Virus record (IMG/VR): IMGVR_UViG_3300018084_000007
Location: 1-33,007 of that record
DNA length: 33,007 bases
Origin: a virus
Reading direction: 5' to 3' (one strand)
A model generated the notes under the pieces. It saw only the letters and a program-made list of their open reading frames with translations, was not told the DNA's origin and ran no database searches. Both the position numbers and the translations under genes were made by a program. How positions within the stretch are numbered: the first letter of the stretch is position 1; each line of letters begins with the position of its first letter. Positions 23,101 through 32,911 of this stretch are shown piece after piece.

Positions 23101-23334
23101 CTACAGGTCCCGGAGCAGCTTCTTCGACCTCTTCAGAAGGCCCGTCCCAGCCTGCGTGAGCTTCGTACCCACGCCGCGCGAGCCCTCCGTCAGATCCTTG
23201 CCCATCTCGGCCTCCAGCTTCTTCACGCGCTTGAAGGCACTCGCCACGTGGATCCCCAGCTCGATGGCGGCACCGGTGAAGGACCCGTGCCGCTCGACAG
23301 CCTGCAGAGCCAGAAGCTGTTTAGTCGTTGCCAT
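23101..23334 (-). CDS. Stand-alone LysR-type DNA-binding domain
   Basis: A 77-aa protein that matches only the N-terminal winged helix-turn-helix of LysR-type regulators: LLALQAVERHGSFTGAAIEL at 7-26, GIHVASAFKRVKKLEAEMGK, then the wing KLTQAGTGLL at 58-67. The usual 200-residue effector domain is absent. AAAGGAG 6 bases before the ATG is a strong ribosome binding site. It is divergent from the sigma factor gene, with only 54 bases between the two starts, and it lies directly upstream of the late operon on the same strand, so it may control both. ModE-type domains are the nearest alternative. Confidence 0.82.
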   Translation of the reverse strand: MATTKQLLALQAVERHGSFTGAAIELGIHVASAFKRVKKLEAEMGKDLTEGSRGVGTKLTQAGTGLLKRSKKLLRDL

Positions 23335-23388: not shown

Positions 23389-24141
23389 ATGTCCCCCCAA
23401 ACCCACAAGGACATTCTCAGCTGCGAGGAGGCGGACTGTGGGGGATGTCGGAACCGACTGTTCCACGCGAACCTGCCCCTCGTTCGTTTCCTCGTGAGGA
23501 GGTATTTCCCCCGAATCAACCGCCCGGCCGGCTACGGCGCAGAGCGTGACTGGAATGACCTGGTGCAGGCCGGGAGCATGGGCCTCTGGCATGCGTGCCT
23601 TCGCCGCGATCCGACGAAGAGCCCCCACGAATGGCGGGGCTACATGGCCCGGTGCATTATCGGCTACTTGCACACTTCGATGCGTGACAACGGGGTAGCA
23701 GCTTTCGTGCGAGACAACGAAGGCAAAAGACCCTTCATGATTCATGTGGATTTCACGATCTCCGACAACCAAGAGTCCGAATCGGTCGACAACCACTGGT
23801 TCAGACTCGCCGACAAGCGGGCGACGGACCGTCAGTACGAATTGGGCAACCGACCCTGGTGGGATCTTGACATCCTTCTTGACGAAGATCATGAGCGTCT
23901 CCGCAATGCCATCGAGGCCCTGCCTGATCGGCTCAAGACCATCCTGAATACTCGGCTCGACGACAAGAGCCTGCAGGGCGCCGCCGAGAAGCTCGGCATC
24001 AGCCGCGAGAGGGTCCGACAACTACAGGTGCGGGCTCTTCGAGCCGTCTACCGCCTCATTCACACGAAAGCTCCGACTCGGAAAGCCGAACGCGAGATGA
24101 TCAGTGCCCTCAACATGTTCGATCCCAGCCACCCGGCGTGA
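23389..24141 (+). CDS. Sigma-70 family RNA polymerase sigma factor
   Basis: A 250-aa protein with region 2 at about residues 24-100 (NLPLVRFLVRRYFP, then DWNDLVQAGSMGLWHACLRR and YMARCIIGYLHTSMRD) and region 4 at about 170-224 (AIEALPDRLKTILNTRLDD, SLQGAAEKLGISRERVRQLQ). The region 4 helix-turn-helix would read a -35 element. A Cys cluster (CEEADCGGC, 12-20) sits at the N-terminus. It would redirect host polymerase to phage genes. A TAG immediately precedes the ATG, so no longer start exists. It leads the rightward operon. Its target promoter sequence is not identified. Confidence 0.9.
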   Translation: MSPQTHKDILSCEEADCGGCRNRLFHANLPLVRFLVRRYFPRINRPAGYGAERDWNDLVQAGSMGLWHACLRRDPTKSPHEWRGYMARCIIGYLHTSMRDNGVAAFVRDNEGKRPFMIHVDFTISDNQESESVDNHWFRLADKRATDRQYELGNRPWWDLDILLDEDHERLRNAIEALPDRLKTILNTRLDDKSLQGAAEKLGISRERVRQLQVRALRAVYRLIHTKAPTRKAEREMISALNMFDPSHPA

Positions 24142-29834: not shown

Positions 29835-30662
29835 CTACGCTTGCACAGCGAACCCTCCTGCAAGGGCCGCAGCAAGGGCCTTCGCTCTTCCCTTCGCTTG
29901 CTTGAAACGTAGTCCTACTACGTACCCTCCCTGCGGGTCTAGAAAGCGAAGGTCCGTCACGTCTCCATCAATGACCCTCGCTCCCCTCCACTCCGTGGGC
30001 AACGCTTCCCCCTTCGCTGTGGAGAAGACCACAGCAACATTCCCCCCTGCTGTTAGCACCCTCCCCGCATCCTCCCCATTCTGGCCACTGTAGGACAGCG
30101 TGACCCGGTAGGATGCATCCCCCGCATGGGCTAGTGCTCGGGTGGGCACCTTCGAGTAGTCGTAGAACGTCACCGCAGGGAAGGCCTCTACCAGCCGAGC
30201 ACCCTCCCCCGTATCCGTCGAACCATCGACGCGGACCACGGGAGCTAGCCCCGCGCTCTTCGCCGTTCGCTCGAAGCGCTCGACTTCGGCCCTCAGAAGC
30301 TCGCGCCAGAGGTCGCGCGCGCCCAGGTAGAGGGTTGCTTTCCAGAGTCGCGAGCGCTTGACCGGTTGCATAATCATTCTACCGGCTTTCGCCCCGAGGC
30401 ACGCTGCTGAGCACGCGTTAGTGGCCATCGGGCAAAGGGTCCGCTTGTCGCCGGGAGCGAAGGCCTCGCGAGCGGGGCTCATGTAAACCACGGAAGTGAG
30501 ATAGCCGAGGCCTTCCCCCTTCTCCGTCTTCGTACCCGAGCCGAGTAGGGTCGGATTCTGCGGGAGCGCTTTCCGCGCCCCACGTCGGACGCGAGCACGT
30601 TTGACGATGCTCGGCCACTGCGCGCGGATTTCTCCGCGAATCGCTGCGAGGGTTCGGCTCAC
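29835..30662 (-). CDS. gp88-like conserved phage protein
   Basis: A 275-aa protein with the family-type core: TLCPMATNACSAACLGAKAG, three Cys spaced like a metal-binding site, then WKATLYLGARDLWRELLRAE, VVRVDGSTDTG and FYDYSKVPTRALAH, and later VTLSYSGQNGEDAG. This matches mycobacteriophage gp88-like proteins seen across many phages; function is not established, though the Cys set and the DGSTD segment suggest an enzyme. Start GTG 30662 (GTGA overlap), chosen over GTG 30677 which lies within the previous gene. Confidence 0.85.
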   Translation of the reverse strand: MSRTLAAIRGEIRAQWPSIVKRARVRRGARKALPQNPTLLGSGTKTEKGEGLGYLTSVVYMSPAREAFAPGDKRTLCPMATNACSAACLGAKAGRMIMQPVKRSRLWKATLYLGARDLWRELLRAEVERFERTAKSAGLAPVVRVDGSTDTGEGARLVEAFPAVTFYDYSKVPTRALAHAGDASYRVTLSYSGQNGEDAGRVLTAGGNVAVVFSTAKGEALPTEWRGARVIDGDVTDLRFLDPQGGYVVGLRFKQAKGRAKALAAALAGGFAVQA

Positions 30663-30778
30663 AGTTTGTGGCTCCACCCGCCACCGGGGAAGTACGTAAT
30701 CCTCCCCCCGTCGCCATCGGGTACGGTGATGGGGCGCCCCAAAAGTCTCGCGAGCGCGGTCAAGACTTTGTCAATCAT
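30659..30778 (-). CDS. 39-aa miniprotein
   Basis: Reads MIDKVLTALARLLGRPITVP and DGDGGRITYFPGGGWSHKL. ATG overlaps the previous stop and its stop overlaps the gp88-like GTG (GTGA), so it fits the coupled pattern of the operon. An amphipathic start and a Gly-rich hairpin-like end are visible. Unknown function. The type of short gene commonly missed by automatic annotation. Confidence 0.6.
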   Translation of the reverse strand: MIDKVLTALARLLGRPITVPDGDGGRITYFPGGGWSHKL

Positions 30779-31636: not shown

Positions 31637-31930
31637 TCAGGATCCGAGGTAGTAGCTCGGAGCTTCGCCCGTCCTGAGCGCTTCGCGAGCATCGCCGGCG
31701 AAGAGCCAGAGCACGCGGTCTGCTAGGGTTTCATCGTCGACGGAGTCAAGATCCTCCCACGATCCGAATCCCCGCAGGTACTCGACCGCATAGGCTCGCG
31801 GCACAGTGAACCCGAGCCGTTCGCGCCAGTAGGTGACTGCTTCCTGCGCATCCTGTCCGGGGGCGGAGCAATCGCTCACACACTCCGCCGGTAGATCCTC
31901 TACAAGCTCGCGCCCGTTCCATTCCACCAT
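31637..31930 (-). CDS. Conserved small phage protein
   Basis: A 97-aa acidic protein: YWRERLGFTVPRAYAVEYLR then GFGSWEDLDSVDDETLADRV and LWLFAGDAREAL. The helix-rich pattern occurs in many phages; no role is known. The ATG lies only 1 base after the stop of the 27-aa membrane peptide, so translation is likely coupled. Confidence 0.78.
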   Translation of the reverse strand: MVEWNGRELVEDLPAECVSDCSAPGQDAQEAVTYWRERLGFTVPRAYAVEYLRGFGSWEDLDSVDDETLADRVLWLFAGDAREALRTGEAPSYYLGS

Positions 31931-31931
31931 G

Positions 31932-32015
31932 TTAGAGGCCCATCGCAGAGGCGAGGTCCGCCAGCATGTAGAGGGTGACCAGACCGAACCCCAGAACCAG
32001 CGCTGCTCGTGCCAT
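31932..32015 (-). CDS. 27-aa single-helix membrane peptide
   Basis: Reads MARAALVLGFGLVTLYMLAD and LASAMGL. The whole chain is one hydrophobic helix with a positive N-terminus. AAGGAG 5 bases before the ATG is a strong ribosome binding site and the peptide is the first gene behind a perfect -24/-12 promoter sequence, so it is probably made. Its size and form resemble tiny holin-like or membrane toxin/regulatory peptides, which is a guess. Confidence 0.65.
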   Translation of the reverse strand: MARAALVLGFGLVTLYMLADLASAMGL

Positions 32016-32043
32016 TTTGTCTCCTTCTTTCGAGGGGAGTCTA

Positions 32044-32060
32044 TTGCAACCCACGTGCCA
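32044..32060 (-). promoter_or_regulatory. Sigma-54-type -24/-12 promoter, leftward
   Basis: On the minus strand TGGCAC (32060-32055), then GTGGG, then TTGCAA (32049-32044): a perfect TGGCAC-N5-TTGCA. Transcription would begin near 32034, about 19 bases before the ATG at 32015 and just ahead of its ribosome binding site. It faces away from the rightward promoter at 32207. Confidence 0.7.
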
Positions 32061-32108
32061 GCCCCGCGAGCGCTCCCGTGGGCCCGCAGGGCCGCGAGTG
32101 CCAGGAAA

Positions 32109-32136
32109 CGTCACTCGAGTGACGCAATTTTGCGTC
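32109..32136. promoter_or_regulatory. Two overlapping palindromes between the divergent promoters
   Basis: Palindrome A, CGTCACTCGAGTGACG (32109-32124), is a perfect 16-bp palindrome. Palindrome B, GACGCAA-TT-TTGCGTC (32121-32136), shares GACG with it. They lie about 50-75 bases upstream of the leftward and 70-100 bases upstream of the rightward -24 element, the distance at which enhancer-binding activators of sigma-54 promoters usually bind. A related pair occurs at 32463-32488. Confidence 0.55.
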
Positions 32137-32206
32137 TCGTTTCTCCGCTTTCGGGAGCTTTTGCACTTTGGCCACCGTCGGAGCGCTTGCGGCGCGTTCT
32201 TAAGGC

Positions 32207-32224
32207 TTGGCACAGCGGTTGCAA
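32207..32224 (+). promoter_or_regulatory. Sigma-54-type -24/-12 promoter, rightward
   Basis: TTGGCAC (32207-32213), then AGCGG, then TTGCAA (32219-32224): a perfect TGGCAC-N5-TTGCA. Transcription would begin near 32234, immediately ahead of the first 34-base leader (32237-32270) and about 41 bases before ATG 32276. No sigma-70 pair is seen in the same place. Confidence 0.7.
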
Positions 32225-32236
32225 TGGATCGGGTAT

Positions 32237-32270
32237 CAACCCAAAGCGCTGAAGGGCGCAACGAACGGAG
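32237..32270 (+). repeat. 34-base leader repeat, copy 1
   Basis: CAACCCAAAGCGCTGAAGGG followed by CGCAACGAACGGAG ends in the GGAG ribosome binding site of the gene at 32276, five bases before its ATG. A perfect copy lies at 32514-32547. GCGCT and GGCGC within it may form a 5-bp hairpin around GAAG. Confidence 0.85.
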
Positions 32271-32275
32271 ACACG

Positions 32276-32470
32276 ATGCAATTTCGAGTAATCCACTACT
32301 ACACCTCTTCAGAGGTTTTCATCGTGGAAGCGGACAGCGCGGAACATGCATCGGAGATAGTCAACGGAGCAGGCAGCCCGCAACCCATCGACGCGACCGG
32401 CCCTAGCTTCGATTCCGAGTGGATCGAGTCCGCGGAGAGTGACTTTCCCGGCGATGGCATGCGACGCTAA
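32276..32470 (+). CDS. 64-aa small protein behind leader copy 1
   Basis: Reads MQFRVIHYYTSSEVFIVEAD, SAEHASEIVNGAGSPQPIDA and ends SDFPGDGMRR. Its start matches a common phage small-protein form in which a strand IHYYTSSEVFIVEADS is followed by a helix AEHASEIV. GGAG of the 34-base leader lies 5 bases upstream. First gene of the rightward operon behind the -24/-12 site. Function unknown. Confidence 0.8.
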   Translation: MQFRVIHYYTSSEVFIVEADSAEHASEIVNGAGSPQPIDATGPSFDSEWIESAESDFPGDGMRR

Positions 32471-32488
32471 GCGTCACTCAAGTCTACG
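32463..32488. promoter_or_regulatory. Second pair of related palindromes before leader copy 2
   Basis: GACGC-TAA-GCGTC (32463-32475, including the stop codon of the first gene) is followed by CGTCACTCAAGT (32472-32483) and CTACG, a diverged copy of palindrome A at 32109. The two overlap on CGTC as A and B do, but in reversed order. Leader copy 2 begins 25 bases further on. Confidence 0.45.
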
Positions 32489-32513
32489 CTCGGCCCTGCC
32501 GATAAGTAGAAAG

Positions 32514-32547
32514 CAACCCAAAGCGCTGAAGGGCGCAACGAACGGAG
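32514..32547 (+). repeat. 34-base leader repeat, copy 2
   Basis: Identical in all 34 bases to copy 1 at 32237-32270, and again placed so that GGAG stands 5 bases ahead of an ATG (32553). No -24/-12 element precedes this copy. Confidence 0.85.
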
Positions 32548-32552
32548 CCAAG

Positions 32553-32705
32553 ATGTCAAGAACACACTTCGAAGCAATCGCGGCAGCGCTGCGCGCAAGT
32601 CACGCGAGCATGGATACCATCCTCGCCATCGCGGCAGCGCTGGAGACGTCAAACCCTCGTTTCGACGCGGAGCGCTTCGTGCGCGCCGCGGAGCCGAAGT
32701 CATGA
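32553..32705 (+). CDS. 50-aa conserved phage protein behind leader copy 2
   Basis: Reads MSRTHFEAIAAALRASHASM, DTILAIAAALETSNPRFDAE and RFVRAAEPKS. The HFEAIAAALR start and NPRFDxERF end are familiar from many small phage proteins in early regions; the function is not known to me. GGAG of the leader lies 5 bases upstream. Its stop overlaps the next ATG (ATGA). Confidence 0.82.
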   Translation: MSRTHFEAIAAALRASHASMDTILAIAAALETSNPRFDAERFVRAAEPKS

Positions 32706-32911
32706 GCAACCGGGAAACCCCTCACGCGTCATTCTGCGAAGACGTCTCCCAATACGAGCACGACACAGAGTGTCAAGAAATGCGAGACGCGAATCCGGAC
32801 GCGGAGGCTTGCTTCTGTGCCCCCTGCCCCGAGTGCAATTTCGGGGCAGGTCTCGACTACTCTCCAGAGGCGATTGAAGAATTCTTCGCCACCTTCGGCG
32901 GAAGGAACTAA
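32702..32911 (+). CDS. 69-aa Cys-rich hypothetical protein
   Basis: Acidic protein with six Cys (CEDV, CQEM, ACFCAPCPEC), a pattern suited to one zinc or to disulphides, and a helical end (SPEAIEEFFATFGG). The ATG overlaps the previous stop (ATGA). No family recognised. Confidence 0.7.
   Translation: MSNRETPHASFCEDVSQYEHDTECQEMRDANPDAEACFCAPCPECNFGAGLDYSPEAIEEFFATFGGRN

Follow-up and report, generated by a model that had tools for sequence, protein, structure and literature searches.

Transcription of phage genes from host sigma-54 (RpoN) promoters is not new. Development of the Pseudomonas phage YuA (Yuavirus, NC_010116) is strictly dependent on host sigma-54, as stated in PMC5053324, and its record annotates three -24/-12 promoters whose measured activity is high. 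Our literature search found no other case with experimental support, in keeping with the original prediction, which held that phage use of host RpoN is rarely reported. On the Salmonella chromosome, the sigma-54 sites of zraP and hydH lie ~170 bp apart, and those of hycA and hypA ~115 bp apart, on opposite strands (PMC3844500).

The locus considered here lies in a window of 33,007 bp, the whole stretch of DNA that was analysed and a complete virus record in IMG/VR. Its source is an uncultured tailed phage. The minus strand encodes portal, terminase, tape-measure and DNA-transfer functions at 0.4-22.6 kb, while the plus strand encodes a deoxycytidylate deaminase, a ligase and a sigma-70-family factor. 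The contig is probably a phage fragment, since the nearest cultured relatives have 72-80 kb and the plus operon described below reaches the contig end. Its portal shares 39-41% identity with the portals of R5C and R26L, which infect Dinoroseobacter, and of the Pseudanabaena phage Pan1 (filed under Nanhaivirus), and the right end of the window had no DNA match among phage records.

The original prediction described perfect TGGCAC-N5-TTGCA sites on both strands, facing outward, and no other full match in the window. Both points were confirmed by an exact-match scan, in which TGGCACNNNNNTTGCA occurred only at 32045-32060 (minus) and 32208-32223 (plus) of the 33,007-bp contig. The remaining matches each carried two mismatches and were at chance level (10 matches in total vs 7.15 expected). 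For sequence of the same composition, 0.027 exact matches per window are expected under a first-order Markov model and 0.003 under a second-order model, where two were observed. A whole-contig scan with an approximate RpoN matrix, written from the published consensus and not fitted to data, also ranked these sites above all others, the third-best window position scoring 13.2, ~7 bits below both. The two sites are as follows:

32045-32061, minus strand: sigma-54-type promoter core CTGGCACGTGGGTTGCA, exact consensus (match 32060-32045), matrix score 19.9 (second-highest of the window), predicted start near 32034
32207-32223, plus strand: sigma-54-type promoter core TTGGCACAGCGGTTGCA, exact consensus (match 32208-32223), matrix score 20.2 (highest of the window), predicted start near 32234

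Agreement between the two extends past the reported core (TGGCAC-N3-GGTTGCAAT-N-GA). Sigma-54 consensus positions outside TGGCAC-N5-TTGCA also match, namely Y before TGG and G or A after TGGCAC, and each site has the GG at -24, the GC at -12, the fixed spacing and the YTGGCAC[GA]-N4-TTGCW context of a sigma-54 promoter. Only 2 of 18 bases distinguish the minus site TGGCACGTGGGTTGCAAT from the Salmonella rsr site TGGCACGCTGGTTGCAAT, which is bound by sigma-54 (PMC3844500). No sigma-70-type promoter (TTGACA, 16-18 bp, TATAAT) was detected in 31900-32600.

The sites stand back to back, 147 bp apart, and face outward. They occupy, as had been claimed, a gene-free stretch between opposed small-gene operons: start codons at 32015 (minus) and 32276 (plus) bound ~260 bp without a credible gene. 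The surrounding features are:

23389-24141, plus strand: phage-encoded sigma-70-family factor (PF04545, E=2.3e-10; phrog_351, E=2.4e-19)
29835-30677, minus strand: GP88-family protein (PF17338, phrog_1617), on the same strand as the minus operon and further downstream
31637-31930, minus strand: minus operon gene 2, 97 aa, directly after gene 1, weak match to phrog_14450 (function unknown)
31932-32015, minus strand: minus operon gene 1, 27-aa hydrophobic peptide, with AAGGAG just 5'
32237-32278, plus strand: leader element copy 1 (direct repeat D1), starting 3 nt past the predicted plus start and ending with ATG
32276-32470, plus strand: plus operon gene 1, 64 aa, no assigned function
32514-32555, plus strand: leader element copy 2, 42 nt, 95% identical to copy 1, preceding the next plus gene and ending with its start codon
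32554-32705, plus strand: plus operon gene 2, 50 aa, no assigned function
32702-32911, plus strand: plus operon gene 3, 69 aa, no assigned function

Sigma-54 transcription starts ~12 bp after the -12 element, so starts are predicted near 32034 and 32234. These predicted starts would precede the start codons by 19 nt (minus) and 42 nt (plus), in the same orientation as the genes. A strong ribosome binding site had been claimed after each; the description suits the minus gene (AAGGAG) and is generous for the plus gene (CGGAG). Given that the 42-nt repeat begins 3 nt past the predicted plus start and ends at the start codon, the repeat unit and the predicted plus leader are almost coextensive, and the repeat is possibly a reused translation-initiation leader. 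The 22-nt core of this repeat had no match in IMG/VR.

The stretch that separates the promoters contains two perfect dyads that overlap (32109-32136, no strand assigned) and form a candidate shared enhancer, or upstream activating sequence:

32109-32124: dyad 1, CGTCACTCGAGTGACG, arms CGTCACTC and GAGTGACG
32121-32136: dyad 2, GACGCAATTTTGCGTC, GACGCAA-TT-TTGCGTC

Measured from the predicted starts, the dyad centres lie at -82 and -94 (minus) and at -118 and -106 (plus), and sigma-54 enhancers are usually found ~70-150 bp upstream (PMC3844500). The better dyad was equalled in 5 of 200 shuffles; the second (32121-32136) also scores as a terminator-like hairpin.

We consider it quite likely, judging from these sequence features, that the two sites are divergent host-RpoN promoters and that an activator acting on the shared dyads opens both. 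Host RNA polymerase carrying host RpoN would bind both promoters as closed complexes. A sigma-54 activator, supplied by the host or by an unsequenced part of the phage, would then bind the dyads midway (32109-32136) and open both promoters, with the minus operon read from near 32034 and the plus operon from near 32234. Neither RpoN nor a sigma-54 activator domain is encoded in the 33-kb contig. With sigma-54, no transcription takes place until an activator has spent ATP, and a phage using it thus ties part of its programme to the state of its host. The signal might be nitrogen, stress or flagellar, as the original prediction proposed, or phage shock or another cue.

Such a phage would resemble YuA in having genes read from host RpoN promoters. 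It belongs to a different group, however, and the arrangement differs: the three YuA promoters are single and co-directional and serve the structural and lysis region, whereas the window holds a divergent perfect-consensus pair, with a candidate shared enhancer, between small-gene operons and away from the structural genes. The three promoters of YuA lie within its first 50 kb, where the approximate matrix found no full-consensus site. What sets the present case apart is the phage group, the gene class and the divergent pair with its candidate enhancer. The Salmonella zraP/hydHG (zraSR) and hycA/hypA regions also have two -24/-12 promoters that face outward from closely spaced positions, but these are chromosomal and have known activators (ZraR and FhlA), while the window operons are phage-borne and would depend on a putative activator.

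The host of the phage plausibly carries RpoN, as an RpoN DNA-binding domain was present in six of the seven top bacterial genomes, those whose portal relatives were nearest. The best portal matches in bacterial genomes came mostly from Alphaproteobacteria, with Rhodobacterales prominent. Among viruses, the exact sigma-54-type site was absent from R5C, R26L, Pan1 and other portal-bearing viral contigs, which are distant and include several short fragments; this suggests that the phage group does not have the sites in general, and absence from relatives so distant says nothing for or against conservation. A portal scan found no close relative spanning the locus, yielding only L135, a 6.4-kb contig whose portal is identical and which lacks the exact site.

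The same layout recurs in other phages. Divergent pairs with a gap of 132-162 bp were found in 10 other IMG/VR contigs (L153-L162), representing about seven lineages by eye, and a control with the wrong spacer (6 bp, not 5) gave 0 divergent pairs. A scan for the 15-base single site gave 104 matches, approximately the number expected by chance for a collection of ~5e10 bases (estimated size), so single sites are uninformative. If all 104 are taken as chance, the collection is bounded at ~5.6e10 bases and ~0.1 divergent pairs would be expected. Neither RpoN DNA-binding nor sigma-54 activator domains were found in the 10 divergent-pair contigs or in six further multi-site contigs. Dyads between the sites exceeded shuffles only in L153, L158 and L161, and not in L155, L156, L157 or L159.

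The base after TGGCAC, which lies outside the search pattern, was G in 62% and A in 33% of 127 dereplicated paired-locus sites, vs 28% and 28% in single-hit loci, such that G or A followed in 95% of the former vs 56% of the latter. This bias is sigma-54's own preference, which argues that the paired-locus sites are real sigma-54-type sites, and not iterons or operators with a chance likeness. In L153, L154, L160, L159, L157 and L161, 4-6 exact sites are clustered tightly, within about 170-310 bp; the L154 cluster occupies a long stretch without genes, with endolysin and terminase genes of the minus strand on one side and plus-strand genes on the other. Two different phages have a GP88-family gene downstream of a divergent sigma-54 pair (29835-30677 in the window and 1720-2352 in L156). 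An association between gene and pair was tested and set aside as weak (2 of 14 records); such sites are missing from nearly every other GP88 contig that was checked, and the placement may be coincidence.

Taken with the full consensus, the exact spacing, the position and orientation of the sites, the dyads at enhancer distance and the lack of a detected sigma-70 alternative, the recurrence of this layout, with none in the control, makes the sigma-54 promoter reading of the window well supported.

Other readings of the pair were weighed against this one. The two sites together form an imperfect inverted repeat (21 nt, 81%), and the phage encodes a 77-aa protein with little beyond a LysR-type HTH domain (23101-23334, minus strand), a divergent neighbour of the sigma-70-family factor gene (23389-24141, plus strand). 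The pair could on these grounds be operators, an inverted repressor or regulator site beside each start, with the true promoters unrecognised. We consider this improbable: the conserved bases are exactly the sigma-54 ones, a single site is only weakly symmetric, the region 31900-32600 held no other detected promoter, and many unrelated phages carry the site with sigma-54's base preference at a position that was not searched for. It is likewise improbable that the sites are phage-specific promoters for the phage's own sigma-70-family factor, their likeness to sigma-54 promoters being coincidental. The phage does encode such a factor, and the sites have extra bases in common (GG before TTGCA, AAT-N-GA after), but their conserved blocks begin 11 bp from each other, as sigma-54 requires. 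Sigma-70-family factors need ~16-18 bp between hexamers, which makes the phage factor an unlikely reader of blocks so spaced. Moreover, the window scan found no more copies ahead of other phage operons, and a full sigma-54 consensus match arising by chance twice would be very unlikely. The sites could also act as RpoN decoys, holding sigma-54 polymerase in non-transcribing closed complexes and blunting host sigma-54 responses such as phage shock. In favour of this are the dense clusters of other phages, which are spaced too tightly for independent promoters. It seems hardly credible here, since the window has just two sites, outward-facing and each properly ahead of a ribosome site and a gene.

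Beyond divergent promoters in a single phage, we tentatively suggest, with slightly more doubt than confidence, that the window is one case of widespread and largely unrecognised phage control regions whose paired sigma-54 sites tie divergent operons in many unrelated phages to host RpoN. If true, the class includes both back-to-back pairs and face-to-face pairs, the latter serving as bidirectional promoters or polymerase decoys. We regard this paired-site class as the more interesting lead. Its members in other phages (L153-L162, L243-L308 and PAK_P1) resemble the window in having paired full-consensus sites in gene-free regions; in most of them, however, the sites oppose each other at a distance of 1-6 bp or are clustered, while the two sites of the window simply stand back to back with 147 bp between them.

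An IMG/VR scan for face-to-face pairs, allowing gaps of 0-30 bp, matched 69 contigs, including L243-L308, and such pairs were also noted in L158, L161 and L162. Many of these contigs come from one marine lineage, which lowers the number of independent origins. In 60 or more viral contigs the element has the form TGGCACN5TTGCA-N1-6-TGCAAN5GTGCCA, and the gap was 1-6 bp in 71 of 78 occurrences, with none at 0 or 7-19. In this geometry the -12 ends face each other and transcripts would run outward past the opposite -24, as in a bidirectional promoter. In L257, four such pairs are stacked in about 180 bp, and stacks of this kind are possible decoys for sigma-54 polymerase. None of 398 Pseudomonadota genomes contained a face-to-face pair, but so small a sample does not allow such pairs to be called phage-specific.

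Cultured phages carry the face-to-face element as well. In PAK_P1 (Pakpunavirus, NC_015294.2) it lies at 55588-55621 in a 624-bp gene-free stretch with matching DNA in 135 phage records, the element itself being checked in three; no copy was detected in phage Kassivere, which is more distant. The PAK_P4 record (NC_022986.1) has the element at 55823-55856, together with an antisense RNA annotated from RNA-Seq at 55650-55850 on the minus strand. The 5' end of this RNA falls inside the element, upstream of an annotated promoter at 55784-55811, and, given that the annotated end may be rounded, the coincidence is only suggestive of transcription from the face-to-face element.
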